Shown: piece after piece, positions 5,520-20,248 of the stretch
Layout of the letters: each line of letters begins with the position of its first letter
Position numbering within the stretch: the first letter of the stretch is position 1
DNA from: Aliigemmobacter aestuarii
Lineage (GTDB): Bacteria > Pseudomonadota > Alphaproteobacteria > Rhodobacterales > Rhodobacteraceae
Direction: 5' to 3'
NCBI RefSeq assembly: GCF_004799285.1
Contig: NZ_SSND01000001.1
Span: forward strand, 682,001 to 746,000
Length of the DNA stretch: 64,000 nt
Position numbers and translations under genes: made by a program
The notes under the pieces: generated by a model
Told to the model about the DNA's origin: nothing
What the model saw: only the letters and a program-made list of their open reading frames with translations
Databases searched by the model: none

Positions 5520-5999
5520 TCAGGCGGCCTTGTAGCTGGCAAAGACCCGGGTCCGGCCATCGCGCAGGATCAGGTGAACGTCATAGGCGTCGCGTTCATC
5601 CTCCGGTCCCATGCCGGGTGCGCCATAGGGCATGCCGGGCACCGCAAGGCCGACGGCGTCGGGGCGTTCCTCCAGAAGGCGGCGGATGTCCGCAACCGGA
5701 ACATGGCCTTCGATCACATAGCCCTCGATCCGGGCGGTATGGCAGGAGGCCATCGACGGGGGGATGCCGTTTTCCCGCTTGAAGGCCTGCAGCGCATCTG
5801 CACCGAGGTGTTCGGTCGTCACGCCAAACCCCTCTTGCGCAAGGATGTCGATCCATGCGCCGCAGCAGCCGCAATCGGGGTCCTTCACGACATGGATCGC
5901 GGGGGCGGCGGCACGGGCAAGGGCCGGGGCAGCTCCGGCCAGGATCACGGCGGCTCCACCGACAAGAAGGTGGCGACGGGATACGAGGGGATGGTTCAT
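5520..5999 (-). CDS. DUF411 periplasmic metal-binding protein
   Basis: This 159-residue exported protein has an N-terminus (residues 1-30) with a twin-arginine-like SRRHLLVGGAAVILAG signal. The mature part starts with a thioredoxin-like strand and VKDPDCGCCGAW, giving a cysteine cluster at C43, C45 and C46, then conserved CHTARIEGYVIEGHVP and a LAVPGMPYGAPGM stretch typical of DUF411. DUF411 proteins are small, often copper-linked periplasmic metal binders. It lies downstream of the P1B ATPase in the same orientation, so it probably buffers or delivers the metal that pump moves. The metal specificity is inferred, not shown. Confidence 0.88.
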   Translation of the reverse strand: MNHPLVSRRHLLVGGAAVILAGAAPALARAAAPAIHVVKDPDCGCCGAWIDILAQEGFGVTTEHLGADALQAFKRENGIPPSMASCHTARIEGYVIEGHVPVADIRRLLEERPDAVGLAVPGMPYGAPGMGPEDERDAYDVHLILRDGRTRVFASYKAA

Positions 6000-6150
6000 G
6001 ATGGTCTCCTTCGCGGTGCCGGTTCGGGCAAGGCGTTCATAGCAGGGAACCACCAAAGCCGACCGGACAAAAGTCAAGCCCGCGTGAAGAGTGCATGATC
6101 GGGCGGGCCGGATCGGGTGGGCCGTTCGCCTCAGGCAGCGCCCGCCCCCG

Positions 6151-8079
6151 TCAGCCCGACAGGCCCGGTGCGCGGGGTTCCGGGCGCGTCATTCCCTCGG
6201 GCGCGATGCGCAGGGCACGCAGCGCGTTCAGGATCACGGCAACGTCTATCGCCTCCTGGATCAGCGCCCCCTGGACGGGGTTGAGATGGCCAAGCGCCGC
6301 CGCGATCATCCCCAGAACCGAAAGGCCGATGCCCACAACCACGCTTTCCAGTGCGATCCGCCGCGACCGGCGCGCGACCTCGACACCCGGCGCGATCCGG
6401 TCGACCCGGTCGACAAGAAGCACCACGTCAGCCGCCTCGGCGCTGGCCGCGGCACCGCGCGCGCCCATGGCAACGCCGACATCCGCCGCCGCGAGTGCCG
6501 GGGCATCGTTGACGCCGTCGCCCACCATCATGACGGGGCCGTTCTTGCGTTCGCTCAGGACCAGCAGGACCTTCTCGTCCGGCGTCAGCCCCGCCCTTAT
6601 GCCATCAAGGCGCAGGCCACGGACGACGCGGCGGGCGACCTCGGGCCGGTCGCCGGTGGCCAGCAGGATGCGGCCGATCCCTTGCCGCCGCAGGTGATCC
6701 AGCATGTCGCCCGCCCCTTCGCGCAGGGGGTCGGACATCACCAGATGACCGGCGAGGCGGCCGTCCACGGCCACGGCCACCATGACCGATCCCGCCGCCA
6801 GTTCCGGATGATCGCCCGGACCGCGGCCGACGCGCTGCGCGACGAACCGGTCGCCGCCCAGGATCACCTGCCGCCCGTCGATGAAGCCGATGACGCCCTC
6901 GCCGGGGATTTCGGCGACGCCCACGGGGATCGGCAGGGTCAGGCCACGGTCTTTCGCGGCGGCAACGATGGCCTGCGCGACAGGATGCTTCGAGGCCTGA
7001 TCCAGCGCCGCGGCAAAGCGAAGGATGTCTTCCGGCGCCATCCGATCTTGTCCCACGCCCGCGCCGTCGCCCGAACCGGCGCCTGCTCTGGCGCCCGCAC
7101 TGTCGATCGACACGATCTGCGGCCGCCCGTCGGTCAGGGTGCCCGTCTTGTCGAGGATCAGGGTGCGGATGCGGGCCATCGCCTCCAGAGGCCGCGCGCC
7201 CTTCACCAGCACCCCGAAATGCGCCGCGCGCGACAGCCCCGCGACCAGCGCGACCGGCACGGCGAGGATCAGCGGGCAAGGCGTGGCCACCACCAGCACC
7301 GCCACCGCACGGATCGGATCGCCCGTGAACCACCATGCGGCAAAAGCCAGCGCGACGGTGACGGCGAGAAACCCCAGCGACCAGCGGTCGGCCAGACGCG
7401 CCATCGGCGCCTTCGATGCCTGCGCCTCCTCCACCAGCCGCACGATCCCGGCGTAGGTGCTGTCCTTCGCCTCATGCGTGGCCTCAAGGTCGAAGGCCTC
7501 GCCCGCGTTCGTCGAACCGCTCATCGCACCGGCGCCGCGTTCCAACCGCACGGGCAGGGATTCCCCGGTCAGCGCCGATGTGTCAAGGAAGGCCGTCTGC
7601 GACAGGATCAGCCCATCGACCGGCACGACATCCCCCTGCCGGATCAGCAGACGGTCACCGGGGGCAAGGTCATCCAGCGACACCTCTTCCAGCCCGCCGT
7701 TGCGGTGGCGGGTGGCGGTGCGCGGCACGCGGGACAAGAGATCGCGCATCTCGCGGCGGGCGCGGCCTTCGGCATAGGCTTCCAGAAAGGTGCCACCCGA
7801 ATACATCACGGCCACCACCGCCGCGGCCAGCGTCTCGCCGAAGGTCAGCGCCGCCGACATCGACAGCGCGGCCACGATATCAAGGCCTACCTCGCCCCGC
7901 GCAACGCTGCGCAGGATCTCTGCGACGAGGGCCGCCAGAACGGGGACGACGCCCGCGAACCAGACCGTCTGCGCAACCGCGCCCCGCCCGCTGAGACTGA
8001 GCGCCAACCCGCCCGCAAGACCGGCAAGCGCGATGGCAAGAAGCAGTGTCTTGAAACGGTCCGTCGCTGCGGTGTCCAA
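6151..8079 (-). CDS. P1B-type heavy-metal-translocating ATPase with TPC motif and no N-terminal metal-binding domain
   Basis: A 642-residue metal pump. It starts directly with membrane helices and has no CxxC HMA domain. Signatures are the actuator SALTGESLPV, the membrane motif ATPCPLIL with C268, phosphorylation site DKTGTLT with D310, nucleotide-domain SKHPVA (usually SEHP), and the hinge GDGVNDAPALAAADVGVAMG. The last helix region has QEAIDVAVILNALRALR. TPCPL instead of CPC argues against a standard copper or ZntA-type pump, so the metal is open. It lies 3 bp downstream of apbE, within the flavin/PepSY operon and before DUF411, which suggests a joint metal role. Residues 324-346 form an Ala/Gly-rich insertion after the phosphorylation site. 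Confidence 0.93.
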   Translation of the reverse strand: MDTAATDRFKTLLLAIALAGLAGGLALSLSGRGAVAQTVWFAGVVPVLAALVAEILRSVARGEVGLDIVAALSMSAALTFGETLAAAVVAVMYSGGTFLEAYAEGRARREMRDLLSRVPRTATRHRNGGLEEVSLDDLAPGDRLLIRQGDVVPVDGLILSQTAFLDTSALTGESLPVRLERGAGAMSGSTNAGEAFDLEATHEAKDSTYAGIVRLVEEAQASKAPMARLADRWSLGFLAVTVALAFAAWWFTGDPIRAVAVLVVATPCPLILAVPVALVAGLSRAAHFGVLVKGARPLEAMARIRTLILDKTGTLTDGRPQIVSIDSAGARAGAGSGDGAGVGQDRMAPEDILRFAAALDQASKHPVAQAIVAAAKDRGLTLPIPVGVAEIPGEGVIGFIDGRQVILGGDRFVAQRVGRGPGDHPELAAGSVMVAVAVDGRLAGHLVMSDPLREGAGDMLDHLRRQGIGRILLATGDRPEVARRVVRGLRLDGIRAGLTPDEKVLLVLSERKNGPVMMVGDGVNDAPALAAADVGVAMGARGAAASAEAADVVLLVDRVDRIAPGVEVARRSRRIALESVVVGIGLSVLGMIAAALGHLNPVQGALIQEAIDVAVILNALRALRIAPEGMTRPEPRAPGLSG

Positions 8080-8082
8080 GGT

Positions 8083-9069
8083 CTAGCCTCCAGTGGTCGG
8101 GCCGCCTGCCGTGGCCCTGCCCGCGAAAATCCGGCCCACCGGCCGACCTTGCACGCCCCCCTGTTCATCGCGCAGCAGGAACAGCGCATCAAGGCCGATC
8201 TGTCCGGCCATCCGCGCCCCTTCGGTCGCACCGGCGACCATCAGCGCCGTCGCCCAGGCATCGGCCTCGGCGCAGGTGGCCGCGACCACGGTAACCGAGG
8301 CGGGCGAGGCGACCAGCGGTGCGCCCCGCCTCGGATCCATCGTGTGCGACAGCGGGCGACCCTGCACGATGACCTGATGGCGGTAGTCTCCGGATGTGGC
8401 CACGGCAGCGTCCTGCAGGGTCAGGATGGAATGGGGCGCCCGTCGATCCGGATCGGGGGCCTCCACCGCGATGGTCCAGGGCCGCCCCTCAGGGCGCAGG
8501 CCCATGGCGCGCATCTCGCCGTCGATGCCCACAAGGGCGTTGGCGATGCCATGCCCGGCCAGAACTTCGGCCAGCCGGTCGACGCCGTGGCCCTTGGCGA
8601 TCCCGTTCAGGTCAAGGACAAGCGGCGCGGACTTGCGGACGCGCGAACCGTCGATCTGAAGCAACTCGTGGACGGGACGACGCGCGGCATCGAGGGCCGC
8701 ACGGATGGCCTGCGGATCAGCCGCGCCGGGGCCGAACCCCCAGGCCGTCACCGCATCGCCCATCCCGATGTCGAACGCCCCGCCCGAGGCGCGGCCAATT
8801 TCCAGCGCCATCGCCAGGACCCGCGCCAGATCGGGCGGAACCTCAACCCAGTCGCCCACCGGCGCCCGGTTCAGCGCCATCAGGTCGCTCGTGGGCTTCC
8901 AGGTGGACATCTGGTTGTCCACGCTGTCCACCGCCGCCTGCAGCGCAGCCGACAGGGTCACCGGGTCCGGGCCGTCATCGGGCGCCGCGAAATAGAGCGC
9001 CGACCAGCGGGTGCCCATCGTCGGCCCGTTCAGGGCGTGGCGGATCGGGTCAGTAGAGGTCTTCGACAT
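8083..9069 (-). CDS. apbE: FAD:protein FMN transferase
   Basis: The 328-residue ApbE attaches FMN through a phosphoester bond to Thr/Ser of target proteins outside the cytoplasm. Visible hallmarks are GPTMGTRWS near the N-terminus, SGGAFDIGMG, LDLNGIAKGHGVDRLAE (FAD/Mg site), and a C-terminal ATCAEADAWATALMVAG with the conserved metal-binding D/T region. There is no lipoprotein signal, so export is not obvious. Its start overlaps the end of the PepSY flavoreductase gene by 20 bp, so the two are translationally linked. A fitting substrate is the DUF2271 protein two genes upstream, which has a DGITGAS motif. Confidence 0.93.
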   Translation of the reverse strand: MSKTSTDPIRHALNGPTMGTRWSALYFAAPDDGPDPVTLSAALQAAVDSVDNQMSTWKPTSDLMALNRAPVGDWVEVPPDLARVLAMALEIGRASGGAFDIGMGDAVTAWGFGPGAADPQAIRAALDAARRPVHELLQIDGSRVRKSAPLVLDLNGIAKGHGVDRLAEVLAGHGIANALVGIDGEMRAMGLRPEGRPWTIAVEAPDPDRRAPHSILTLQDAAVATSGDYRHQVIVQGRPLSHTMDPRRGAPLVASPASVTVVAATCAEADAWATALMVAGATEGARMAGQIGLDALFLLRDEQGGVQGRPVGRIFAGRATAGGPTTGG

Positions 9070-11257
9070 AGCGCCCCTCGGCCTTCAGCATGGCGGGTGT
9101 GAGGCCCACGGGCAAAAGGATTTCATCCAGGGCCTGCGCGACGCCTTTCGCCATGTCGCGGCCACCGCAGACCATCACCCTGGCCCCACCGGCCAGCAAG
9201 GCCGCGACCTGCACCGCCTCGGCGCGAAGGGCATCCTGCACATAGCCGGGCCGCTCGCCGCGCGATACGGCCGTGACGAGACGGGAAAGCCGCCCCTCGG
9301 CCCGCCATCGGGACAGATCTTCGCGGTAAAGGAAATCGCTGCCGGGATGGCGCATCCCGAAGAACAGATGCATCGGTCGGCGGCGGTCGTTTGCGCGGAT
9401 GAACCCGACCAGCGGCCCGATCCCGGTGCCCGCCCCGATCAGGATGAGCGGCGCGCGGTCCCGCCCGGCATGGAAATCGGGATTGCGGCGCAGGAAGGCC
9501 TGCACCCGGTCGCCGGGTTGGAGCGACATCAGCTGGCCCGAACAAAGGCCGCCGGGAAGTCTGCGCACCACGATCTCGGCAAAGCCGTCACGGCTGCCGG
9601 AGGCCAGCGAATAGAACCGTGGAATGGATGACCCTTCGGGCAGGATGCCCAGAAGATCGCCCGCCTGAAACCGCGCCAGGCCCCGGCCCGTCAGCCGCGC
9701 CCAAAGGGACGCCTTCGGCAGGGCAAAACGCAGGATCGCGGTCGGGGCCTGCACCTCTGCCCCAAGGTCGCGGCGCGTGGCCAGGGTCAGGCTTTCGGCG
9801 GCGGGGCGGCCGGGCCGGTGGTCAAGCTCCAGCGTGATGCCCAGGGCATCGCCAAGCGCCCGGCCCCAGCGCGCGAATTCCTGCGGCGACTGGCGGTCCA
9901 CCATGTCCAGCGGCAGAAGGGAGGCCCAGCCCATGGCACGGGCGGTCGCCTCCACCTCGGCGGCAAAGGCGCAGAAGGCGGGAAAGCTGCGGTCGCCGAA
10001 ACCCAGAACGGCCAGCGGGGCGGCCGGAACCTTGGTCAGCCGCGCCAGCCGGTCCAGGAACCCTTTGGCCGAAGCGGGGGCTGCGCCTTCGCCATAGGTG
10101 GCGGCGAGGATCAGGAAACGTTCGGCGCAGGGATGGTGCGCAGGGTCGAAGCCTGACATCGGGGCCACATGCACCGATTGACCGGCCTCCCGCAGGGCCC
10201 GCGCCAGCGTCGCGGCAAAGCCCCAGGTGCTGCCGCCTTCGGAGCCGACAAGGATCACCGTCCGCGCCCGCGCGGCCGGGGCATTGTCGCGCAGCACGGG
10301 GCGGCCCCGCCGCCCGGCCACCCAGATCAGGGCGCCCGTCGCCCCCATCACCGGCACGGCAAGCGCCATGAGACCGAGGATCAGCCCCAGCACCGCCGCC
10401 CCCTGGCCGGTGTGCAGCATGTAGATCGTCTCGGACATCCGTTGCCAGGGCGTCGGATCGGCCCATGACAGCAGCCGCCCGGTGCCCTGGTCAACAAGGC
10501 CCGTGCCCGCATCGGTGGACAGTGTGAACACGTCCTGCGCATCGCCGGCATAGGGAAAGCCCAGCTTGCGGAAGCTGTCCACCGGGACATCCCGCAGCGC
10601 CGCCATCTGGCTGGGGGAAAGTCCGGTCTCGCTGCTGACCGCCGCAGGCGCGGGCGGGCGCAACCCGCCATCGGGCAGAAGATCGAAGGTCGAGGCCGTC
10701 ATCCAGAGCGCGGTCGACGCCGACAGCATCAGCCCCGGAACGGCGATCCGGGCTATGGCCACATGCAGACGACCGGCCCCTGGCCCGCGCAGGCGGGCGA
10801 ACCATCTCGTCCAGCCGCCGTTGCGACGCGCCACAAGCGCCGCGCCTGACAGCGCCAGAACCAGCATCGCCGCAGCCCCCGACGCCATGACCAGGCGCCC
10901 GGCATCGTCCAGAAAGAGCGACCGGTGCAGGGTGGTCAGCCAGCGTTTGGTCGGATTCGGATCAGCCGGGCCGACATCCGCCCCGGTAGCCGGGTCGATC
11001 ACCGCCGACCCCGGCTTTCCGCCATCGAACCACCATGCGGTGATCCTGCCCGACGGCGAGCGGCGAATCTCCTCAAGCCCCGGATGCCGGGCAAGGACCA
11101 GGCTCGCAAGTTCCGCGACGGTCTGTCCCGCCACGGGTTGTGGTGCCGAAAGTCGTTCGGCCGTGGGAAAGACAGACAGCGCCGCACCGCTGAGCGCAAG
11201 GATGGACAGAAGCAGGGCCGCCACCAGCCCCGGCCAACGGTGAAGCACGCGGACCAT
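9050..11257 (-). CDS. PepSY-TM / flavodoxin / CPR-type membrane flavoreductase
   Basis: This 735-residue fusion has an N-terminal PepSY-associated membrane region (about residues 1-335, four to five hydrophobic helices with His at VLHRWPG, TLHRSLF and RLHVAIA that could bind heme), a flavodoxin-like FMN domain (about 345-480, LVGSEGGSTWGFAATLAR), an FAD domain with RFYSLAS (about 510-610), and an NAD(P)H domain with LIGAGTGIGPLVGF and a C-terminal YVEDLY. The layout suits moving electrons from cytoplasmic NAD(P)H across the membrane. Partners in the operon are DUF2271, ApbE and the ferric-reductase-like protein. The final acceptor is unknown. Confidence 0.9.
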   Translation of the reverse strand: MVRVLHRWPGLVAALLLSILALSGAALSVFPTAERLSAPQPVAGQTVAELASLVLARHPGLEEIRRSPSGRITAWWFDGGKPGSAVIDPATGADVGPADPNPTKRWLTTLHRSLFLDDAGRLVMASGAAAMLVLALSGAALVARRNGGWTRWFARLRGPGAGRLHVAIARIAVPGLMLSASTALWMTASTFDLLPDGGLRPPAPAAVSSETGLSPSQMAALRDVPVDSFRKLGFPYAGDAQDVFTLSTDAGTGLVDQGTGRLLSWADPTPWQRMSETIYMLHTGQGAAVLGLILGLMALAVPVMGATGALIWVAGRRGRPVLRDNAPAARARTVILVGSEGGSTWGFAATLARALREAGQSVHVAPMSGFDPAHHPCAERFLILAATYGEGAAPASAKGFLDRLARLTKVPAAPLAVLGFGDRSFPAFCAFAAEVEATARAMGWASLLPLDMVDRQSPQEFARWGRALGDALGITLELDHRPGRPAAESLTLATRRDLGAEVQAPTAILRFALPKASLWARLTGRGLARFQAGDLLGILPEGSSIPRFYSLASGSRDGFAEIVVRRLPGGLCSGQLMSLQPGDRVQAFLRRNPDFHAGRDRAPLILIGAGTGIGPLVGFIRANDRRRPMHLFFGMRHPGSDFLYREDLSRWRAEGRLSRLVTAVSRGERPGYVQDALRAEAVQVAALLAGGARVMVCGGRDMAKGVAQALDEILLPVGLTPAMLKAEGRYVEDLY

Positions 11258-11268
11258 GAACCAGGCCC

Positions 11269-11748
11269 TTACCTGTAGGTGAAACTGGCAACGTAACGGC
11301 GACCGGCGACCGGCGTGCCCGCGCCTGCGGCGGTCAGGGGCACCGCGATCTCGTTGGGGCTGTCGCGCATGTCTTCGACCGCGGCGTCGATGTGCAGCGT
11401 ATAGCCCGCATCGAACAGCGCATCCGCCAGATCGAGGGTGATTTCCAAAGACCGCCCCGCGCCGACACTGGCACCGGTGATGCCGTCGATCTGCGCCGGG
11501 TCGCCACCGGTGGCGGCATACCAGTCGCTCAGGTGTTCATGGTATTTCGACTTGCCTCCTGCCATCCAGAGGCTGCCCACGTAGCGGCCCGACGGATCGG
11601 TGACGTAAAGCACCAGATAGGCACCGTCGCCGCCGTATTCGGTCAGCGTTGTGGTCATGGTGACCGGGCGGGCGATGGCCAGACCCGGCAGGGCCACTGC
11701 GGTGGTCAGGGCGGTGGTCAGGGCAAGCGTGGCAAGACGGGATTTCAT
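11269..11748 (-). CDS. DUF2271 exported protein with flavinylation motif
   Basis: A 159-residue protein with a Sec signal peptide (cleavage near AIA-RP, residue 26). The YLVLYVTDPSGRYVGSLW and KSKYHEHLSDWY stretches identify DUF2271. Residues 88-94 read DGITGAS, which fits the ApbE target pattern D-x-x-(S/T)-G-A-(S/T) and makes T91 the candidate FMN-bearing residue. The gene is 11 bp upstream of the PepSY flavoreductase and in an operon with apbE, so it is probably a periplasmic one-flavin electron carrier reduced by that enzyme. Flavinylation is inferred from the motif; I have not seen it tested for this protein. Confidence 0.88.
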   Translation of the reverse strand: MKSRLATLALTTALTTAVALPGLAIARPVTMTTTLTEYGGDGAYLVLYVTDPSGRYVGSLWMAGGKSKYHEHLSDWYAATGGDPAQIDGITGASVGAGRSLEITLDLADALFDAGYTLHIDAAVEDMRDSPNEIAVPLTAAGAGTPVAGRRYVASFTYR

Positions 11749-11810: not shown

Positions 11811-12200
<390 letters not shown>

Positions 12201-12340
12201 CTCGGGTTCTCCTTTCGTGGATGGGCCGATCCTGATCCGCCCGGCTGATCGCTTGCTGACGGCGGCGCGGGATCTGCTTCAGCCTGCCGTCAGGAAAACC
12301 GCGCCTCGATCCGGCGCGCCGGGACGCGGAACGGGTGGGC

Positions 12341-13690
12341 TCAGCGCAACTCGAAGGCTTCGCAATGGTCGCGGCGGGGGGATTTCCCCATCTCCCGCAG
12401 GCCCGCAAGGATCGAGGCGCGCAGGGCGGTCGGCCCGCAGAAGAACAGTTCGGACTGCGCGATGTCGAAGGGCACCATGGCCGCCAGCCGCGCCGCGGTC
12501 AGGCGCCCGTCGGTCTTGCTAGCCACGACCTGGACCGTCAGGCCCGGATGACGATCCGCGATGGCCTTCAGGCGTCCGGCGGCAAAGGCCTCGTCCGGGG
12601 TGGCCACGGCCCAGACCAGCGCGATCTGCTGCCGGTCGGTTTCGACAAGGGACTCGGCCCAGGCAAGGAAGGGCGTGATCCCGATCCCGCCTGCCAGCCA
12701 GACCTGACGCGGGACCCGGCGACGGAACAGGAAGCGGCCATACGGCCCCTCGACCCGCAGGCCCTGCCCCGGAACAAGGCGTTCCGGCAGGCGCGATGTC
12801 CAGTCGCCGAGCGCCTTGATCCCGAAGCGGAGCCGTCCGTCGCCATGCGGGGCCGCGGCGATGGTGAAGGGATGCGCCTCGGCCATGCCGGCATCGGGGG
12901 CCGAGACGAAGGCGAACTGACCGGGGCGCCAGCGCATCGGGCGTCCGGTCGGGCGCAGGATGATCTCGGTCGTGGTGCCGTGACGGTCGATCCGGTCCAG
13001 CACATGGGCCCTGGGCCGCAGGACGAGCGCCACGAACTGGGTGAACAGCCATGCGGCCAGCCCGGCCAGGCTGAAGGCATTCAGATAAAGCCCAAGCGCG
13101 GGGTCGATTCCGGCGGGCTTGTCGATGGCCAGCTGGTGAAAGGCGGCGATGGCGAACAGCAGCCCGGTGAAGCGGTGCGTGAAGCGCCACAGAGGCCAGG
13201 GCAGTTCCAGCCGGGTGAACGGGATGCGCTTGATCCAGGACAGCAGGATCAAACCGATGAATCCGTTCAGGGCAAATTCGCCCACATCCCCGGCAAAGTC
13301 GCCCAGATCGGTTTCGCGCACGAAATCCTCGACCTCGGGTTCGATCATGTTGTGCGCGATCATCAGGGCCAGTGCCGCGATGCCCAGCCATTTGTGCAGC
13401 CGGTACATCCGGTCCAGCCCGCCGCACAGCGGTTCGGCCACAGGGGGCCGGGCGGCCAGGATCAGCGCAAGGCCCATGGCAACGATGGACGCGGCACCGA
13501 AGGCAATGCCAAGCGCCGTGTCCACGCGATAGGGCGCATAGGCCGCAAAGCCAAGGACGGCTCCGGCCATCACCGCCAGGGCGGCAAGACCGGGCCCGGC
13601 GAGGTTCAGCCGCACCCACGGTGCGAACGCCGCGCCCCGGACGCCCGCACCGGCGGGCCTGCCGCCACGGGCGGCCTGCACGTCAGTCAT
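12341..13690 (-). CDS. Ferric-reductase-like transmembrane oxidoreductase with FAD/NAD-binding domain
   Basis: This 449-residue protein has six or so N-terminal helices (about residues 25-230) carrying paired histidines for b-type hemes (RLHKWLG with LMIAHNM, and FTHRFTG with FHQLAI), then an FAD-binding domain (WRPGQFAFVSA, AHPFTIAAAP) and an NAD-binding domain (LAGGIGITPFLAW, FFCGPTALR) ending in FELR. This is the NOX/ferric-reductase superfamily. The ATG at 13690 overlaps the upstream PepSY gene by 8 bp. In this operon it is a second route for electrons from NAD(P)H to the periplasm. Acceptors could be Fe(III), Cu(II) or the flavinylated DUF2271 protein. Confidence 0.9.
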   Translation of the reverse strand: MTDVQAARGGRPAGAGVRGAAFAPWVRLNLAGPGLAALAVMAGAVLGFAAYAPYRVDTALGIAFGAASIVAMGLALILAARPPVAEPLCGGLDRMYRLHKWLGIAALALMIAHNMIEPEVEDFVRETDLGDFAGDVGEFALNGFIGLILLSWIKRIPFTRLELPWPLWRFTHRFTGLLFAIAAFHQLAIDKPAGIDPALGLYLNAFSLAGLAAWLFTQFVALVLRPRAHVLDRIDRHGTTTEIILRPTGRPMRWRPGQFAFVSAPDAGMAEAHPFTIAAAPHGDGRLRFGIKALGDWTSRLPERLVPGQGLRVEGPYGRFLFRRRVPRQVWLAGGIGITPFLAWAESLVETDRQQIALVWAVATPDEAFAAGRLKAIADRHPGLTVQVVASKTDGRLTAARLAAMVPFDIAQSELFFCGPTALRASILAGLREMGKSPRRDHCEAFELR

Positions 13691-14015
13691 CGTCCCTGAC
13701 CTCGCGTTCACGTTCGCGTTCGCGTTCGCGGACGGGCGGGGCCTCGCCATCATCGTATTCGAGTTCGATGATCCGCAGCGTGCCGGGGTCGACCTTGGCC
13801 TCGATCGCGCGGCCCGTGGCATCGCGGCCGTCGATTTCATAGCAGCCGTCGTCGATCTTGATGCGCCGCACCGTCCAGCCCTGTTCGGCGGCAAGGCCCG
13901 CGACCGCCTCGCGCGGTTGCCAGTCTGCCATGGGGACGTAACAATCATCATCGGCAAAGGCCGCCCCGGCGGGAAGACCCGCGAGGAAAGCAAGAATTGT
14001 CAGTGTCTTTCGCAT
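13683..14015 (-). CDS. Small exported PepSY-domain protein with acidic/basic tail
   Basis: A 110-residue first gene of the leftward operon. The signal peptide is about 1-22 (LTILAFLAGLPAGAAFA), and the mature part is one PepSY_2-like domain (EAVAGLAAEQGWTVRRIKID, then EIDGRDATGRAIEAKVDPGT and LRIIELEYDD), ending in an (RE)n run and DDD. The ATG at 14015 was preferred to GTG at 14024 because a GGAG lies 8 bp upstream. PepSY_2 proteins are periplasmic and linked to two-component-regulated metal or antimicrobial responses. The tail's hexanucleotide repeat is at about 13702-13730. Confidence 0.82.
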   Translation of the reverse strand: MRKTLTILAFLAGLPAGAAFADDDCYVPMADWQPREAVAGLAAEQGWTVRRIKIDDGCYEIDGRDATGRAIEAKVDPGTLRIIELEYDDGEAPPVREREREREREVRDDD

Positions 14016-14075
14016 GGGCCACACTCCGTGTCAGGGCCTGTCCGCAGGAAGTGATGCCGGTGAAACCTTACAGGA

Positions 14076-14117
14076 GCCTGAAGCCCGCTTTCCGTCCGCT
14101 TCAGGCCCTTGTCAGGC
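14076..14117. promoter_or_regulatory. Inverted repeat and 11-bp direct repeats in the divergent promoter
   Basis: GCCTGAAGC (14076-14084) and GCTTCAGGC (14098-14106) are a perfect 9-bp dyad with a 13-bp spacer. The right arm's TCAGGC recurs at 14112, an 11-bp period. This spacing is what OmpR/PmrA-family dimers bind. It lies between the operon starting at 14015 and the response-regulator gene at 14171, so it probably controls both. Confidence 0.5.
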
Positions 14118-14170: not shown

Positions 14171-14830
14171 ATGCGAATCCTGCTGATCGAGGATGACACC
14201 GTCCTGGGGGCCGCCGTGCGCGATCAGGTCGCCGCCGATGGCCATTCGGTGGATTGGGTGCAGCGGCTCGACGCGGCGGGGGATGCCCTGGCGGGCGCGG
14301 CCTTCGACCTTGTCCTTCTGGACCTGATGCTGCCCGACGGAAGGGGCATCCCCTTCCTGCGCCGGCTGAGGACGCGGGGCGATGTGACGCCGGTCATCAT
14401 CCTGACGGCGCTCGACCAGATCAGCGACCGGATCGAGGGGCTGAACGCCGGGGCCGACGACTATCTGGTCAAGCCGTTCGATCTGGCGGAACTGTCCGCC
14501 CGCATCGGATCGGTCGCGCGGCGTTATGCGGGCAACCCGAACCCGATCGTTGCGCACGGGCCTCTGGAAATCGATCTTGCCGCCCGCAGCATCCACCGCG
14601 ACGGTCGCCCGGTGACGCTGACCGCGCGGGAATGGGCGCTGTTCGAGGCGTTCCTGTCCCGTCCGGGCCAACTGCTTTCGAAGGCGCAGCTTGAAGACAA
14701 GCTTTATGCCTTCGATGCCGAGGTCGAAAGCAACACGATCGAGGTTCACGTCAGCCGCCTGCGCAAGAAACTCGGCGCAGGGATCATCGAGACGGAACGC
14801 GGCCTCGGGTATCGGCTGGGGCGCGGATGA
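14171..14830 (+). CDS. OmpR-family response regulator (PmrA/QseB-like)
   Basis: The 219-residue protein has a receiver domain (acid pocket E7-D8-D9, phospho-acceptor D51 in LLDLMLPDG, T-loop ILTALDQ, K in LVKPFD) and a C-terminal winged helix ending in NTIEVHVSRLRKKLG and RGLGYRL. It overlaps the following histidine kinase by 4 bp. It is divergent from the PepSY/flavin/metal operon and is the obvious regulator of it. The stimulus cannot be read from sequence; QseB/PmrA relatives respond to metal ions or envelope stress. Confidence 0.93.
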   Translation: MRILLIEDDTVLGAAVRDQVAADGHSVDWVQRLDAAGDALAGAAFDLVLLDLMLPDGRGIPFLRRLRTRGDVTPVIILTALDQISDRIEGLNAGADDYLVKPFDLAELSARIGSVARRYAGNPNPIVAHGPLEIDLAARSIHRDGRPVTLTAREWALFEAFLSRPGQLLSKAQLEDKLYAFDAEVESNTIEVHVSRLRKKLGAGIIETERGLGYRLGRG

Positions 14831-16158
14831 GGGCGCCGCGAAGCCTTCAGGGGCGGCTGGGGCTGTGGCTGGGCCTGGCGCTGACGCTGGTCTGGATCAC
14901 AGCGGCCAGCCTGACGGCCCTGATCGCACGGGCCGAGATGGAAGAGGTTTTCGACGCCGCCCTGCAGGAAACGGCGCAGCGTATCCTGCCGCTGGCCGTG
15001 ATCGACATCCTGAACCGCGAGGAAGAGGGCATCAGCCAGCGCCTGTCCGCGATCCGCGCGCATGACGAGTTCTTCACCTACGTCGTGCGCGACGACCGGG
15101 GGCGTGTCCTTCTGCAATCCCATGCCGCCGATCCGGCGATCTTTCCGGCCTGGGACGGGATCGGCTTTCGGCAGACCGCGACGCATCGGATGTTCAATGA
15201 CGAGGCCGTGCAGGGCACGATCCGCATCACGGTGGCCGAACCCCTGGACCACCGCGCCAGGGTCGCGCGCGAATTGCAGATGGGCCTTGGCCTGCCGCTT
15301 CTGATCGTGCTGCCGGTCGCGCTTCTGGTGATCGCCCTGGGGGTCAGGGCCAGCCTTGCACCGCTGCGGCAATTCCGCGACGGGCTGGCCGCGCGGGGCG
15401 CGCGCGATCTGAGCCCGGTGGCCTTGACCGGCCTGCCCTCCGAGGTCGCCCCGGTGGCAGAGACGATGAACGGCCTTCTGTCCCGCCTGTCCGCCGCCTT
15501 CGAGGCCGAACGCAGCTTTGCCGCCAACGCCGCGCACGAGTTGCGCACGCCCCTGGCTGGGGCCATCGCGCAGGCGCAAAGGTTGCAGGCCGAAACCGGG
15601 GACTCCGTGGCGAGGACCCGCGCGGGCGAGATTGAGGCGACGCTGAAGCGCCTGACACGGGTGTCCGAACGGCTGATGCAACTTGCCCGTGCGGAGGGCG
15701 GGCGGCTTCGGCTGGACAGGGCAAGCGATATCCGCCCCGTGCTGCGGCTGGTGCTGGACGACATCGCCCGCCAGCAGGATGGGGGCCGGCTGATCCTGTC
15801 CTTTCCGGAAACGCCGGTGCTGTCGGACCTCGATCCCGATGCCCTTGCCATCCTTCTGCGCAACCTGACGGAAAACGCGCTGCGGCATGGCCGGGCGGAC
15901 GGCCCGGTGAGCGTTACGCTGACCGCGGATGGCGCGCTGGTGGTCGAAAACGAAGGCCAGGTCATTCCGCCCGAGGCCCTTGAGGGGCTGACCGGCCGCT
16001 TCGTGCGGGCAGGCACCGAGCCGGGCAGCGGCCTTGGCCTCGCGATCGTGACGGCCATTGCCGAACGCAGCGGCGCCACACTTCGGATCGCCTCGCCCCG
16101 TCCGGGGCGGCAGGATGGCTTTTCCGTCCGTTTCGTCCTTCCGGCCGCGCGGGCCTGA
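14827..16158 (+). CDS. Sensor histidine kinase, QseC/PmrB-like
   Basis: A 443-residue membrane kinase: TM1 about residues 13-36, periplasmic sensor of about 120 residues, TM2 about 158-178, HAMP, then HisKA with NAAHELRTPLAG (H237 predicted phosphorylation site) and an HATPase domain with LRNLTENALRHG and GSGLGLAIV. The start overlaps the regulator's stop (ATGA), a typical co-translated pair. The periplasmic domain is acidic near the membrane (ARAEMEEVFDAAL), as in metal- or polycation-sensing QseC/PmrB relatives. It ends about 40 bp from the convergent dgkA gene. Confidence 0.93.
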   Translation: MRAPRSLQGRLGLWLGLALTLVWITAASLTALIARAEMEEVFDAALQETAQRILPLAVIDILNREEEGISQRLSAIRAHDEFFTYVVRDDRGRVLLQSHAADPAIFPAWDGIGFRQTATHRMFNDEAVQGTIRITVAEPLDHRARVARELQMGLGLPLLIVLPVALLVIALGVRASLAPLRQFRDGLAARGARDLSPVALTGLPSEVAPVAETMNGLLSRLSAAFEAERSFAANAAHELRTPLAGAIAQAQRLQAETGDSVARTRAGEIEATLKRLTRVSERLMQLARAEGGRLRLDRASDIRPVLRLVLDDIARQQDGGRLILSFPETPVLSDLDPDALAILLRNLTENALRHGRADGPVSVTLTADGALVVENEGQVIPPEALEGLTGRFVRAGTEPGSGLGLAIVTAIAERSGATLRIASPRPGRQDGFSVRFVLPAARA

Positions 16159-16199: not shown

Positions 16200-16595
16200 T
16201 CAGATCAGCCGCGCAAGGACAGCCGCGACGAACCCACCCGCGACCAGCAGCATCAGCCCCACCGCCAGCGATCCCAGATCCTTGGCATCCCGCGCCATTT
16301 CGGACCATTCGGGCGAGATGCGGTCGGTCAGCACCTCGATGGCGGTGTTCAGCGCCTCGACCACCAGGATCAGCGCCAGAAGCAGCAGGGCCGTCAGCCA
16401 GTGCCACGCCTCTGCCCCGCGCCAGAGAAAGGCCAGCGCGACAAGCACCGCGCCGCCGATTTCAAGCCGCGCGGCGGTTTCGGCCCAAAGCCTTTTGAAC
16501 CCGGCCAGCGAATAGCTGGCGGCATCCACCACATGCAAAAGGCCCTTTCGCGGCGGAATGACCTTCCGGTCCGGGTCTCCGCGATCCCCCGCCAT
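16200..16595 (-). CDS. dgkA: Diacylglycerol kinase
   Basis: A 131-residue integral-membrane enzyme that phosphorylates diacylglycerol to phosphatidic acid. The length, the N-terminal KRLWAETAARLE helix, LVVEALNTAIEVLTDR (ENTAIE-type active-site motif with the catalytic Glu) and RDAKDLGSLAVGLML fit bacterial DgkA. The ATG at 16595 overlaps the eptA stop as TGATG, and AGAGGG lies 7 bp upstream. The coupling makes sense because EptA releases diacylglycerol when it takes phosphoethanolamine from phosphatidylethanolamine, and DgkA can recycle it. Confidence 0.92.
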   Translation of the reverse strand: MAGDRGDPDRKVIPPRKGLLHVVDAASYSLAGFKRLWAETAARLEIGGAVLVALAFLWRGAEAWHWLTALLLLALILVVEALNTAIEVLTDRISPEWSEMARDAKDLGSLAVGLMLLVAGGFVAAVLARLI

Positions 16596-18235
16596 CAGCT
16601 TGCCCTCTGGATGCGGCAACCGTCCGTCAGGTCCAGCGCCGGGTCACGCGCCGTCGTCGTGACATCCAAAAGGCCGAGGATGCTGTGAAACAGGTTGTCG
16701 TGACTGGCCGGGGCGCGGGCCTTGTCGCCAAGGCAGGCTGCGTCCAGCCCCATCGTCCGCCGGAAACCCTCGCCAAGCCACATGACCATCGGCACCCTTG
16801 TCTGGGTCTCGGGGGCCATGAACAGGGGCGCCGCGTGCAGGTAAAGCCCGCCCTCCCCCAGCGACTCGCCATGATCCGAAAGAAAGACCATCGCGGCATC
16901 CGCCTTGTCGCTGGCCGCAAGCATGTCGATCGTCCGCGCCAGGACCCGGTCGGTTTCCAGCACCGCGTTGTCATAGGCATTCACGATCCCGGCAACCTCG
17001 CATTTGGCGAATTCGGCGGTCCGGCAATCCGGGGTGAAGACGGCCTGATCCTGAGGATAGCGCAGGAAATAGGCCGGACCGTGATTGCCGATCATGTGCA
17101 GCACGAGGACCGTATCCTGCGTGATCGTGTCAAGCGTCCGTTCGATCAGGGGCAGGAACACCCGGTCCGTGCATTCGACGGCACAGGCTTCGGGGTCGAG
17201 CGTGGCATCGACCCGGTCCCATCCGGTGCGGGTCGCGATCTTCTGGTCGCCGGTGTTGTTGTCCACCCAACGCACCGCAAACCCCGCGCGCGCCAGCACG
17301 TCCAGCAGGTTTTCCTGCGACAGGAACCGGTCCCGCGAATAGCCTGCCTGCGCCAGGGGCGAGAACATGCAGGGCAGTGAAACGGCGGTCGAGGTGCCGC
17401 AGGCGCCGACATCGGGGAAGTTGATCACCTCGCGGCGCGCCAGTTCGGGTGTCGTGTCGCGGGCATATCCGTTCAGCCCGAAGTTCTGGGCCCGCAGCGT
17501 TTCGCCCACGAACAGCACCAGCAGAACGGGCTTTTCCGCACCGGCCAGATGCGGGCCCGGCCTTGCGTCGGGTCCGACCGGATGCAGTACGGCGGCCTCG
17601 GCGGCGAACTGTTGCTTGCCATAGCGGGCAAGCGCCCCGATCGTCGCCCCCGGCTGATACGAGGCCATCAGTTCCTTGCGTTCGCGCAGCACGGCCGAAA
17701 AGGTCTTGAAATCGGCAAACAGCCCGCCCGCGAGGACGGCGAAGGACAGCGCCACCCCCAGCGGCCAGCGCCACAGGTGATGCCAGCGCGATACCCTGTC
17801 GATCCGCGGCCAGAACACCAGTGCCGCGGGCAGGACCCCTGTCAACACGATGGTGCCCGCCGCCGCGGGCGTGACCAGATGGCGCGATTCGGTGACTGTC
17901 GTTTCGAAGACGTTGCGCACCATCTCGCGGTCGATCAGCACCCCGAAGCTCTGTTCAAAGTGATTGGCCGCGGCCGCGATCAGGATCAGCGCGGCCGCCA
18001 CGGGTTTCTGCAACCGGCCGGGGCCGAAGAATTCCAGCGTCAGCACCGTCAGCGCGAAGATGGCCAGCGCGAACAGGGCCATCCGGGCCGGGCTGTCGCC
18101 CAGAATATCGGCCAGACGCTGCCAGAACCCCGTGTTCAGCGCGGCCATGATGTAGCTGGCCACGGCAAGGTTGAGGCCAAGCTGCGAAAGTGTCGGGCGG
18201 AAAAGCCTGACGGGGGCAATGTTCGTATCGGTCAT
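16595..18235 (-). CDS. eptA: Lipid A phosphoethanolamine transferase
   Basis: The 546-residue enzyme has five N-terminal helices (about residues 18-170) and a periplasmic alkaline-phosphatase-like domain. Catalytic features are FVGETLRAQNF, CGTSTAVSLPCMF with T283 as the expected nucleophile and C279-C289 as the usual disulfide, and SDHGESLGEGG. It transfers phosphoethanolamine from PE to lipid A, lowering negative charge and giving polymyxin tolerance. It is transcribed with dgkA and diverges from a PmrAB-like pair, the typical regulators of eptA. The start at 18235 begins the conserved N-terminus (RPTLSQLGLNLAVASYI). Confidence 0.93.
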   Translation of the reverse strand: MTDTNIAPVRLFRPTLSQLGLNLAVASYIMAALNTGFWQRLADILGDSPARMALFALAIFALTVLTLEFFGPGRLQKPVAAALILIAAAANHFEQSFGVLIDREMVRNVFETTVTESRHLVTPAAAGTIVLTGVLPAALVFWPRIDRVSRWHHLWRWPLGVALSFAVLAGGLFADFKTFSAVLRERKELMASYQPGATIGALARYGKQQFAAEAAVLHPVGPDARPGPHLAGAEKPVLLVLFVGETLRAQNFGLNGYARDTTPELARREVINFPDVGACGTSTAVSLPCMFSPLAQAGYSRDRFLSQENLLDVLARAGFAVRWVDNNTGDQKIATRTGWDRVDATLDPEACAVECTDRVFLPLIERTLDTITQDTVLVLHMIGNHGPAYFLRYPQDQAVFTPDCRTAEFAKCEVAGIVNAYDNAVLETDRVLARTIDMLAASDKADAAMVFLSDHGESLGEGGLYLHAAPLFMAPETQTRVPMVMWLGEGFRRTMGLDAACLGDKARAPASHDNLFHSILGLLDVTTTARDPALDLTDGCRIQRAS

Positions 18236-18300
18236 CTGTCCTGTTGCGGCCGGTCTGCCGCCTGCTCGGGTTATCGTCGCCCCCCTTTGGCGCGCCGAAC

Positions 18301-18318
18301 CTTGCAGCAGGCTTACAG
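18301..18318. promoter_or_regulatory. PmrA-box-like direct repeat CTTGCAG-N4-CTTACAG
   Basis: Two 7-bp half sites differ at one base and are spaced 11 bp, in the 124-bp divergent region between eptA and the response regulator. The pattern CTT(N8)CTT resembles PmrA/OmpR-family boxes. The regulator may thereby control both eptA-dgkA and itself. Confidence 0.5.
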
Positions 18319-18359
18319 CGCCCCCTCGCGCCGGATGTCGTGCCGGGATAGAAAGGGCC

Positions 18360-19013
18360 ATGCGCCTTCTTCTGGTCGAGGACACAGCCGAACTTGCCCG
18401 ATCCGTCCTGCAGTTCCTGCGGGCCGAGGGACATGCCGTGGACCACGCCCCCGATGCCGCGACGGCGATCGAGGCGATGGCGGTGGCCGACTATGCCTGC
18501 GTGATCCTGGATCTGGGCCTGCCCGACGGGTCCGGGCTTGACCTGCTGAAGACATGGCGCCGGGCCGGCAGGCGCACGCCCGTCCTGATCGCCACCGCCC
18601 GCGACCAGATCAGCGACCGGATCGCCGGGCTGGACGCAGGGGCCGATGATTATGTGGTCAAGCCCTTCGATCTGCACGAACTCGCCGCCCGCATCCGTGC
18701 CCATGCCCGGCGCGGTCAGGGGGCGCCCGAAAGTCGGGTCGAGATCGCCGGGCTTGAGGTGGACCGCGCGGCTGCCCGCGTCTGGCGCGATGGCGGCGAA
18801 ATCCGCCTGACCTCGCGGGAATGGGCGCTGTTCGACGCGCTTCTGGGGGCGCGGGGGCGCGTGCTGCCGAAACCCGCGCTGGAGGAGGTGCTGGAGGGCT
18901 TCGATGCCGTTATCGAGGGCAACGCGGTCGAGGTCTATGTCTCGCGGCTGCGCAGCAAGCTTGGGCAAGGCGTGATCGAGACGCGCCGGGGCCTGGGGTA
19001 TATCCTGCCATGA
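18360..19013 (+). CDS. OmpR-family response regulator, PmrA-like
   Basis: The 217-residue protein has a receiver domain with VEDTAEL, phospho-acceptor D51 (VILDLGLPDG), IATARDQ and VKPFD, and a winged-helix domain ending NAVEVYVSRLRSKLG. The ATG at 18360 starts the canonical MRLLLVED. It overlaps the histidine kinase gene by 4 bp and is divergent from eptA-dgkA, so regulation of lipid A modification in response to metals or cationic peptides is likely. It is strongly similar in layout to the pair at 14.2-16.2 kb, and the two may be paralogues. Confidence 0.92.
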   Translation: MRLLLVEDTAELARSVLQFLRAEGHAVDHAPDAATAIEAMAVADYACVILDLGLPDGSGLDLLKTWRRAGRRTPVLIATARDQISDRIAGLDAGADDYVVKPFDLHELAARIRAHARRGQGAPESRVEIAGLEVDRAAARVWRDGGEIRLTSREWALFDALLGARGRVLPKPALEEVLEGFDAVIEGNAVEVYVSRLRSKLGQGVIETRRGLGYILP

Positions 19014-20248
19014 CAGCGCGCGCCCGTCCCTGGTCCTTGCGCCGGCGCCTGACAGGGGGTGTGCTGGCGCTGGTGCTGGGTGGATGGATCGCCACCGTCG
19101 TCCTTTCGGCCTTCGTGCTGGAACACGAGATGGACGAGATGTTCGACGAAGAGCTGCGGGCCCTGGTCGAAACGACGGTCCTGTATCTCGACACGGCGCA
19201 GGGGGGCTCGATCCCGCGCACGCTGGGGGTGGAAACGAACGACGGCGAACGCGTGCTGCGCATCCTTTCGCCCGGACGCGCCGCCGCGCCTGCGCCATGG
19301 CCCGCGCTTGCGGGCGATGGGTTCCATGACGCGCCCGGCTGGCGCATCCTGCGCATCAGCGCCGAGGGTGTGGTGATCGAAGCCGCCCACGCCACCACAT
19401 GGCGGCGCGAAGAGATGCTGGAGGCGGCCTCGGCCTTCCTCGCGCTGGCGGTTCCGCTGATCGTGCTTCTGCTCTGGGGTCTCAGCCGGATCGTGACGAG
19501 GACGACGGCACCCGTGGTGCGGCTGGCCGACGAGGTCGCGTCGCGCGGCCCGGATGACCTGTCCCCGACGGGTGCTGACGGGCTGCCGCAAGAGCTTCGC
19601 CCCCTGGCCGCCGCGCTTGACGCCTACCTCGCCCGGATCGGGGCGCTGCGGCAATCGGAACGCGATTTCATCGCCAATGCCGCGCATGAACTGCGCACGC
19701 CGCTGGCCGGGCTGCGCAACCGGCTGCTCCTGTCCTCCGATCCCGAGGCGCAGGCGACCATCGGCATGGTCGATGCGCTGACCCGGCGGGTCGAACGGTT
19801 ATTGCAGGTGTCGCGGCTTGAGGCGGGGCTTGGCCTGGGCCGGGGGCCTGCCGACCTGATCCGCATCCTGCGGTTGCTGGTCGACGAACTGGCCCCCCGC
19901 GCGGGCCATGCGATCCGGCTGGACGACTCGGACCTGGACCGGCTGGAAGTCGCGGCAGACCCGGACGCGCTGGCGATCCTCTTGCGCAACCTGATCGAGA
20001 ACGCGCTGGAACACGGCACGGGGGACGTGCGGATCACCGTCCTCGCCGACGGGCGCATGGCGATCGAGAACCCCGCGTCCCGGCCCGACCTGCCCGAGGC
20101 ACGCTTTGCGCGCGGCCCCGGATCATCCGGCGCGGGCCTCGGGCTTTCGATCGTGGAAGCGCTGGCCAGCGCCATGCAGGTGCCGCTTTCGCGGACGGTG
20201 CGCGCGGATCTTGTCCGGTTCGACCTGCGGTTCGATCTGGCCCGCTGA
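19010..20248 (+). CDS. Sensor histidine kinase, PmrB-like
   Basis: A 412-residue kinase: TM1 about residues 14-37, a small periplasmic sensor of about 110 residues with acidic EHEMDEMFDEEL just after the membrane, TM2 about 143-165, HAMP, HisKA with NAAHELRTPLAG (H226), and a HATPase with LRNLIENALEHG and GLGLSIVEAL. The acidic patch resembles the iron/cationic-peptide-sensing motifs of PmrB. The ATG overlaps the regulator stop (ATGA). With eptA-dgkA this makes a complete lipid A modification and control locus. Confidence 0.92.
   Translation: MTARARPWSLRRRLTGGVLALVLGGWIATVVLSAFVLEHEMDEMFDEELRALVETTVLYLDTAQGGSIPRTLGVETNDGERVLRILSPGRAAAPAPWPALAGDGFHDAPGWRILRISAEGVVIEAAHATTWRREEMLEAASAFLALAVPLIVLLLWGLSRIVTRTTAPVVRLADEVASRGPDDLSPTGADGLPQELRPLAAALDAYLARIGALRQSERDFIANAAHELRTPLAGLRNRLLLSSDPEAQATIGMVDALTRRVERLLQVSRLEAGLGLGRGPADLIRILRLLVDELAPRAGHAIRLDDSDLDRLEVAADPDALAILLRNLIENALEHGTGDVRITVLADGRMAIENPASRPDLPEARFARGPGSSGAGLGLSIVEALASAMQVPLSRTVRADLVRFDLRFDLAR

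Follow-up and report, generated by a model that had tools for sequence, protein, structure and literature searches.

A DUF2271 operon of Aliigemmobacter aestuarii and its plasmid-borne relatives: a candidate metal-sensing branch of the PepSY-like flavinylation systems

Overview

The window analyzed here, a stretch of 64,000 nucleotides from Aliigemmobacter aestuarii, carries a further member of the PepSY-like flavinylation systems, in which a secreted DUF2271 protein is encoded together with a PepSY membrane reductase and the FMN transferase ApbE. The operon belongs to a group of loci, here termed clade B, that appears to constitute a distinct, self-regulated branch of these systems and that often travels on conjugative plasmids. 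We favor, with moderate confidence, the view that it specifies a metal-sensing, NADPH-driven periplasmic reductase acting through an FMN-bearing DUF2271 protein, with Fe(III) as the most likely acceptor. The clade B branch appears to be undescribed, as do its regulation and its spread on plasmids, and in the literature we found no experiments on any clade B protein.

Organization of the operon

Relatives of the operon were collected as 80 loci recovered by protein similarity, along with regions around DUF2271 matches across the phylum; most of these loci are close relatives, and the counts given below overstate their independence. In the usual clade B order, genes for a sensor kinase and a response regulator diverge from those for a PepSY_2 protein, a second membrane redox protein, a protein with a characteristic C-terminal tail, DUF2271, a PepSY_TM-diflavin reductase and ApbE, and the operon frequently extends to a P1B ATPase and a VIT-family transporter. 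The features of the window copy are as follows.

6151..8079, minus strand: P1B-type metal ATPase with the membrane motif TPCPLILAVP (TIGR01525, 495.7 bits, above the cut-off)
8083..9069, minus strand: ApbE, FAD:protein FMN transferase (PF02424, 258.6 bits)
9050..11257, minus strand: PepSY_TM domain with four transmembrane segments fused to a flavodoxin and FAD/NADPH diflavin reductase (735 aa; Pfam; His6, His111, His165 and His282)
11269..11748, minus strand: secreted DUF2271 protein of clade B, the predicted covalent-FMN electron shuttle (159 aa; PF10029)
11467..11487, minus strand: flavinylation motif DGITGAS, residues 88-94, with predicted FMN acceptor S94 (codon 11467-11469)
11811..12200, minus strand: secreted Asp-rich protein (29 Asp in 105 mature residues; positional equivalents in relatives)
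11811..11894, minus strand: constant C-terminal tail of the Asp-rich protein (last 27 residues)
12278..12293, plus strand: candidate operator, a TTCAG-N6-GTMAG copy without mismatch, upstream of the Asp-rich/DUF2271/reductase/apbE unit
12341..13690, minus strand: ferric-reductase-like membrane protein with FAD and NAD domains (PF01794, PF08022, PF00175)
13683..14015, minus strand: small secreted acidic PepSY_2 protein (PF13670, 99.5 bits)
14067..14082, minus strand: candidate operator TTCAG-N6-GTAAG without mismatch, facing the PepSY_2 gene
14100..14115, plus strand: candidate operator TTCAG-N6-GTCAG without mismatch, facing the response-regulator gene
14171..14830, plus strand: OmpR-type response regulator, PmrA/QseB-like (profile matches)
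14827..16158, plus strand: sensor histidine kinase (2CSK_N) with a conserved periplasmic E37-x-x-E40 (profile matches, alignment)

The second membrane protein varies among the 98 loci with a linked PepSY_TM gene: it is ferric-reductase-like in 32 and cytochrome b561-like in 37, the two never occur together, and neither was recognized in 29. The small PepSY_2 protein is probably a sensor accessory or a metal-binding protein. Beside the operon, at 16200-20248, are genes for DAGK and for an EptA-like phosphoethanolamine transferase, along with another response regulator/kinase pair, and a DUF411 protein with a CGCC motif is encoded downstream of the P1B ATPase (5520-6077). The DAGK, EptA-like and DUF411 queries found no match in the loci of relatives, and these genes are therefore treated as neighbors rather than as operon members.

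The secreted Asp-rich protein matched no Pfam or NCBIfam model and has no second copy in the genome. Its tail, NPAPAGTVAPPxNGLFGNGxPPxxxxN, is found in 85 of the 98 PepSY_TM-linked loci, where the N-terminal part preceding it is Asp-rich in some and PepSY_2-like in others, and it is nearly constant among relatives in which the Asp runs vary in length. As a guess, the tail might be a docking element.

The DUF2271 protein as a predicted substrate of ApbE

The product of the central gene matches PF10029 (DUF2271) with 111.8 bits against a cut-off of 27.3, spanning positions 3-135 of the 136 in the profile, and its N-terminus, MKSRLATLALTTALTTAVALPGLAIA, was judged by eye to be a Sec-type, signal-peptide-like segment. 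Together with the motif scan, these matches confirm an earlier note on this DNA, which had recognized DGITGAS, residues 88-94, in a secreted DUF2271 protein; the gene order and Pfam matches likewise bear out its placement of apbE as the second gene away on the same strand, with a PepSY flavoreductase between. Among the six-frame open reading frames of the window that reach 100 aa or more, DGITGAS is the sole match to D-x-x-[ST]-G-A-[ST], a pattern that arises in 0.6% of shuffles of the DUF2271 protein sequence. Profile searches of the genome recovered one DUF2271 protein and two ApbE proteins, and no match to the FMN_bind domain.

ApbE attaches FMN to the C-terminal Ser/Thr of its motif (PMC12052999), and hence the predicted site is S94 rather than T91, where the earlier note had put the FMN phosphoester. 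T91 can be set aside on this literature and on the alignment, in which position 4 of the motif is variable (S/T/A) and position 7 is fixed within each clade. The same note had called the motif perfect, a description that holds for the window copy but does not extend to clade B as a whole: while G-A is invariant and the acceptor is Ser in all 100 sequences, position 1 is Asn in 76, Asp in 21, Ser in two and His in one. As the replacement of Asp by Ala in an assayed ApbE substrate had minor effects only (PMC12052999), Asn at this position is no strong argument against flavinylation. The note would have counted DUF2271 homologues beside apbE without the motif as a refutation; instead, all 93 homologues encoded with both apbE and PepSY_TM retain [ST]GAS. 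We thus predict with high confidence that S94 is flavinylated by the adjacent ApbE.

This prediction has precedents. In Amantichitinum ursilacus, the cognate ApbE flavinylates the DUF2271 protein, a modification lost when the Thr at the site is replaced by Ala (Meheust et al. 2021, eLife, PMC8238504). The same survey, which published in 2021 the genomic association of DUF2271, ApbE and PepSY proteins to which the note had alluded, found DUF2271 in 2833 PepSY-like clusters and VIT1 in 167 clusters, and an NAD-binding domain in 1077 PepSY genes (PMC8238504). The flavinylation prediction is hence already in the literature. The window operon has in common with these systems the DUF2271 substrate, ApbE, the PepSY membrane protein and the links to VIT1 and MsrQ-like genes, as well as the NAD-binding domain, which there is present in a subset (PMC8238504). 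It differs in that the assayed DUF2271 protein has a Thr acceptor, which would place it in clade A, and the window protein has Ser. Further, in the main text of that paper we found no dedicated two-component system, operator, Asp-rich tail protein, P1B ATPase or plasmid carriage (PMC8238504).

A sequence search of the DUF2271 protein against the PDB returned nothing useful, and a fold assignment was dropped, the structure model being of modest confidence (pLDDT 62) and its best PDB match not significant (E 0.033).

Two clades of DUF2271

In a maximum-likelihood tree, the DUF2271 proteins fall into two groups with 100/100 support, separated by a long branch. The acceptor is Thr in 60 of 61 members of clade A and Ser in all 100 of clade B, counts that follow the tree-based reassignment of four rows: one is a long-branch row whose placement in the tree is opposite to its context label (L188), and the other three lack only a recognized PepSY_TM gene (L087, L098, L165). 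The window protein, with its Ser acceptor, groups with clade B and falls outside the Thr-acceptor type. The apbE gene lies inside the locus in 93 of the 98 PepSY_TM-linked loci; clade B loci without apbE in view include L158, L164, L165 and that of the Citrobacter plasmid pPSV.

Two further observations emerged from the sample. ApbE-DUF2271 fusions, found among loci L172, L173, L186 and L189-L191, bear the motif DGVTRPT or DGVSRPT, with HGIARET and DAMSGPT in others; the last Thr is kept and G-A is mostly lost, and the specificity of ApbE may be relaxed where enzyme and substrate are fused. Tropicibacter alexandrii has the clade B operon three times in a single genome (L046, L089, L105).

The PepSY_TM-diflavin reductase and the electron path

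The 735-aa protein encoded between the DUF2271 and apbE genes matches PF03929 with 122.2 bits, which, beside DUF2271 and apbE, identifies the operon as a PepSY-like flavinylation system. Its model, likewise of modest confidence (pLDDT 72), has predicted membrane helices at residues 2-37, 118-146, 160-190 and 284-317. His6, His111, His165 and His282 are invariant in 93-94 of 94 relatives. The predicted order of the helices, given a cytoplasmic reductase half, would bring His6 and His165 to the cytoplasmic face and His111 and His282 to the periplasmic face, i.e., two conserved His on each face of the membrane, as in FoxB, and heme binding is predicted on this layout. A profile of the membrane half searched against the PDB had FoxB (7abw) as its best match, a weak one (E 0.046), in which His6, His111 and His282 align with FoxB His residues. 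FoxB shares the four-helix PepSY_TM di-heme layout with His at both faces (PMC13038864), but the NADPH diflavin module is present only on the window protein.

The C-terminal half of the model resembles the P450 reductase, NOS reductase and CysJ folds (Z about 26), in keeping with a diflavin reductase composed of flavodoxin and FAD/NADPH domains, and these matches favor NADPH as the donor. The matches listed in this structure search belong to the reductase half, without FoxB among them, and are uninformative on the PepSY_TM half. An electron path from NADPH to the FMN is, in our estimate, very likely. The earlier note had suggested a periplasmic shuttle with covalent FMN that receives its electrons from NAD(P)H by way of the membrane; as a prediction, this finds good support in the flavinylation of a homologue (PMC8238504) and in the four invariant His and P450-reductase-like module of the PepSY protein. 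The two-component system, operators, Asp-rich tail protein, metal ATPase and mobility had no part in that suggestion.

A dedicated two-component system and its operators

The divergently encoded response regulator is nearest to the PmrA and QseB models, with both regulator and kinase scoring under the PmrA, PmrB and Qse equivalog cut-offs. Directly after its first helix, the kinase has an ExxE motif, with E37 conserved in 97% and E40 in 91% of relatives. The TTCAG-N6-GTMAG boxes of the window recur at matching places in relatives: the 89 intergenic regions between regulator and PepSY_2 genes hold 128 sites, where 0.06 would be expected, and a clade A locus of 16 kb holds 0.1 on average. The 11-base spacing of the repeats suits OmpR-type regulators, and the neighboring regulator presumably binds these boxes. 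Of seven perfect sites genome-wide, three are in the operon and the other four, by eye, seemingly lie within coding frames; for this reason we claim no wider regulon. The two-component system is apparently dedicated to a single electron-transfer operon.

An ExxE-type motif is also present in the Fe2+ sensor BqsS (PMC12666569). Small PepSY proteins encoded beside two-component genes are common, and one of them, DbfQ, binds its own kinase (PMC12714742). The window system shares with BqsRS/DbfQRS the secreted PepSY protein next door and, with BqsS, the periplasmic ExxE of the kinase (PMC12666569, PMC12714742), but differs in its TTCAG-N6-GTMAG operator and its apparent dedication to one operon. 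In the UipA system, too, an extracytoplasmic PepSY protein with an acidic face is encoded beside a two-component system, and no flavinylated reductase is described there (PMC8963506). We consider it likely that the operon is under metal control.

Plasmid carriage

A search of PLSDB recovered a homologue on 97 plasmids, 71 of them predicted to be conjugative; 38 of these records are from Pseudosulfitobacter, probably all Pseudosulfitobacter pseudonitzschiae, and are not independent. On two repABC/MPF_T plasmids, the complete unit, including P1B ATPase and VIT, adjoins repABC. More distant copies are present on plasmids of Xanthobacter, Rhizobium and Cupriavidus and on an IncHI1B plasmid of Citrobacter. 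The last of these, pPSV of Citrobacter freundii (L204), has a clade B-type operon that includes VIT and lies close to genes for phosphite dehydrogenase and phosphonate transport; it has no adjacent apbE and would need an ApbE encoded elsewhere. The evidence for mobility comes from the plasmids of relatives, the window copy being on a draft-genome contig.

Proposed mechanism and alternative explanations

We propose that ApbE would link FMN by a phosphoester to S94 of the DUF2271 protein, turning it into a periplasmic carrier. Electrons from cytoplasmic NADPH would enter the diflavin module, pass its FAD and FMN and reach two b-hemes, held by His6/His165 on the cytoplasmic side and His111/His282 on the periplasmic side, and go on from these to FMN-DUF2271 and an external acceptor. 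The most likely acceptor is Fe(III), or else some other reducible metal, carried by the acidic proteins of the operon, Asp-rich or PepSY_2; Fe(III) as the main acceptor is, to our mind, slightly favored. Extracytoplasmic metal would be sensed by the divergent PmrA/QseB-like system, with the PepSY_2 protein probably as its accessory sensor, and the operon would be switched on via TTCAG-N6-GTMAG. The reduced divalent ion could then be moved by the P1B ATPase and, in many relatives, by VIT as well. Observed here are the order of the genes, the motif and clade of the DUF2271 protein, the conserved His, the operator and the mobility, and flavinylation and the di-heme PepSY_TM come from the work of others on relatives; the acceptor, the signal and the direction of metal movement are what we infer. 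Although the earlier note regarded the biological role as open, iron reduction has already been proposed for PepSY-like flavinylation clusters (PMC8238504) and partly tested in related systems (PMC12004947).

The metal transport genes bear directly on the identity of the acceptor. The P1B ATPase is present in 57 of 98 clade B-type loci against three of 63 clade A loci, and VIT in 45 of 98 against one of 63; near relatives are included in all of these counts, so that P values computed from them are no more than indicative. The TPCPLILAVP motif is identical in 42 of the 43 readable relatives adjoining apbE, and the sequence assigns the ATPase to the P1B class, which transports many metals, rather than to a particular metal or named P1B subgroup. 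It is possible, if doubtful, that the target is not iron and that the operon instead serves redox detoxification or homeostasis of copper, chromate, uranyl or another metal, with efflux by the P1B ATPase. Besides the frequency of this ATPase, such a role would suit the copy on the Cupriavidus metallidurans CH34 megaplasmid, the C. pinatubonensis copy that adjoins a cation diffusion facilitator and a P-type ATPase, and the support of copper enzymes by CrpH, a PepSY_TM protein; UipA, moreover, is reported to bind both uranyl and iron (PMC8963506). It fits less well with the recurrent linkage to VIT, an iron/manganese transporter family, with the ExxE of the sensor, and with the TPC of the ATPase beside apbE, where copper pumps have CPC.

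A role in iron starvation is suggested by an operon of Caulobacter crescentus (CCNA_03155-03159), which likewise encodes DUF2271, ApbE, a PepSY-family membrane protein and a flavoprotein reductase (PMC3751524, PMC12004947). It is strongly Fur-regulated and induced by low iron (PMC3751524), and insertions in it reduce fitness in EDTA (PMC12004947). By analogy, the window operon could reduce siderophore-bound Fe(III) in the periplasm for import as Fe(II), and the association of PepSY-like clusters with VIT1 and TonB receptors (PMC8238504) and the activity of FoxB as a ferrisiderophore reductase (PMC13038864) lend weight to the analogy. The Caulobacter operon differs from that of the window in its Fur control, its DUF4198 gene and its separate reductase and PepSY genes. 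We deem an uptake role of this kind unlikely for the window operon: clade B loci encode a two-component system of their own, with operators that are conserved, and a P1B ATPase of the heavy-metal type; a deep split divides the DUF2271 clades; and no TonB receptor or DUF4198 partner was recognized within the window operon.

Other ApbE targets function in respiration (PMC12052999), and the second membrane protein is ferric-reductase/MsrQ-like or cytochrome b561-like, both of which would accord with a shuttle serving a periplasmic respiratory or repair enzyme, as NqrC, RnfG and MsrPQ do; this is improbable, neither the operon nor the examined cargo units of plasmids having yielded a recognizable substrate enzyme. 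Finally, that the protein is unflavinylated, its motif a conserved structural loop and its dependence on ApbE lost in this clade, might be read from the prevalence of Asn over Asp and the loci with apbE out of view, but is very improbable given apbE within 93 of 98 loci, the near harmlessness of Asp-to-Ala in the assayed substrate (PMC12052999), and the invariant Ser acceptor and G-A.

The preferred reading, a metal-sensing, NADPH-driven reductase acting through FMN-DUF2271, is thus supported by homologue flavinylation (PMC8238504), the clade B motif, His conservation, the operators, the VIT/P1B linkage and the kinase ExxE, and by the Fur regulation of the related Caulobacter operon and its requirement under EDTA (PMC3751524, PMC12004947). 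It is weakened by the lack of an adjacent VIT in the window operon (one weak VIT match lies elsewhere in the genome), by the operon having no recognized iron importer or TonB receptor, and by the departure of most relatives from the described motif, Asn being its first residue in these. More tentatively, the unit might be a self-contained metal island borne by conjugative plasmids, combining a dedicated metal-sensing two-component system, a covalent-flavin reductase and modular acidic metal carriers whose NPAPAGTVAPPxNGLFGNGxPP tail docks onto FMN-DUF2271 or the PepSY_TM reductase.

Implications

Clade B bears on the roles of DUF2271 flavoproteins beyond iron starvation. With its private-looking switch, defined operators, recurring partners and mobility, it makes the signal, the substrate and the electron path testable in one transferable operon. 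Further, the occurrence of Ser or Thr as the acceptor and of Asn or Asp at motif position 1 provides a natural contrast for the requirements of ApbE.
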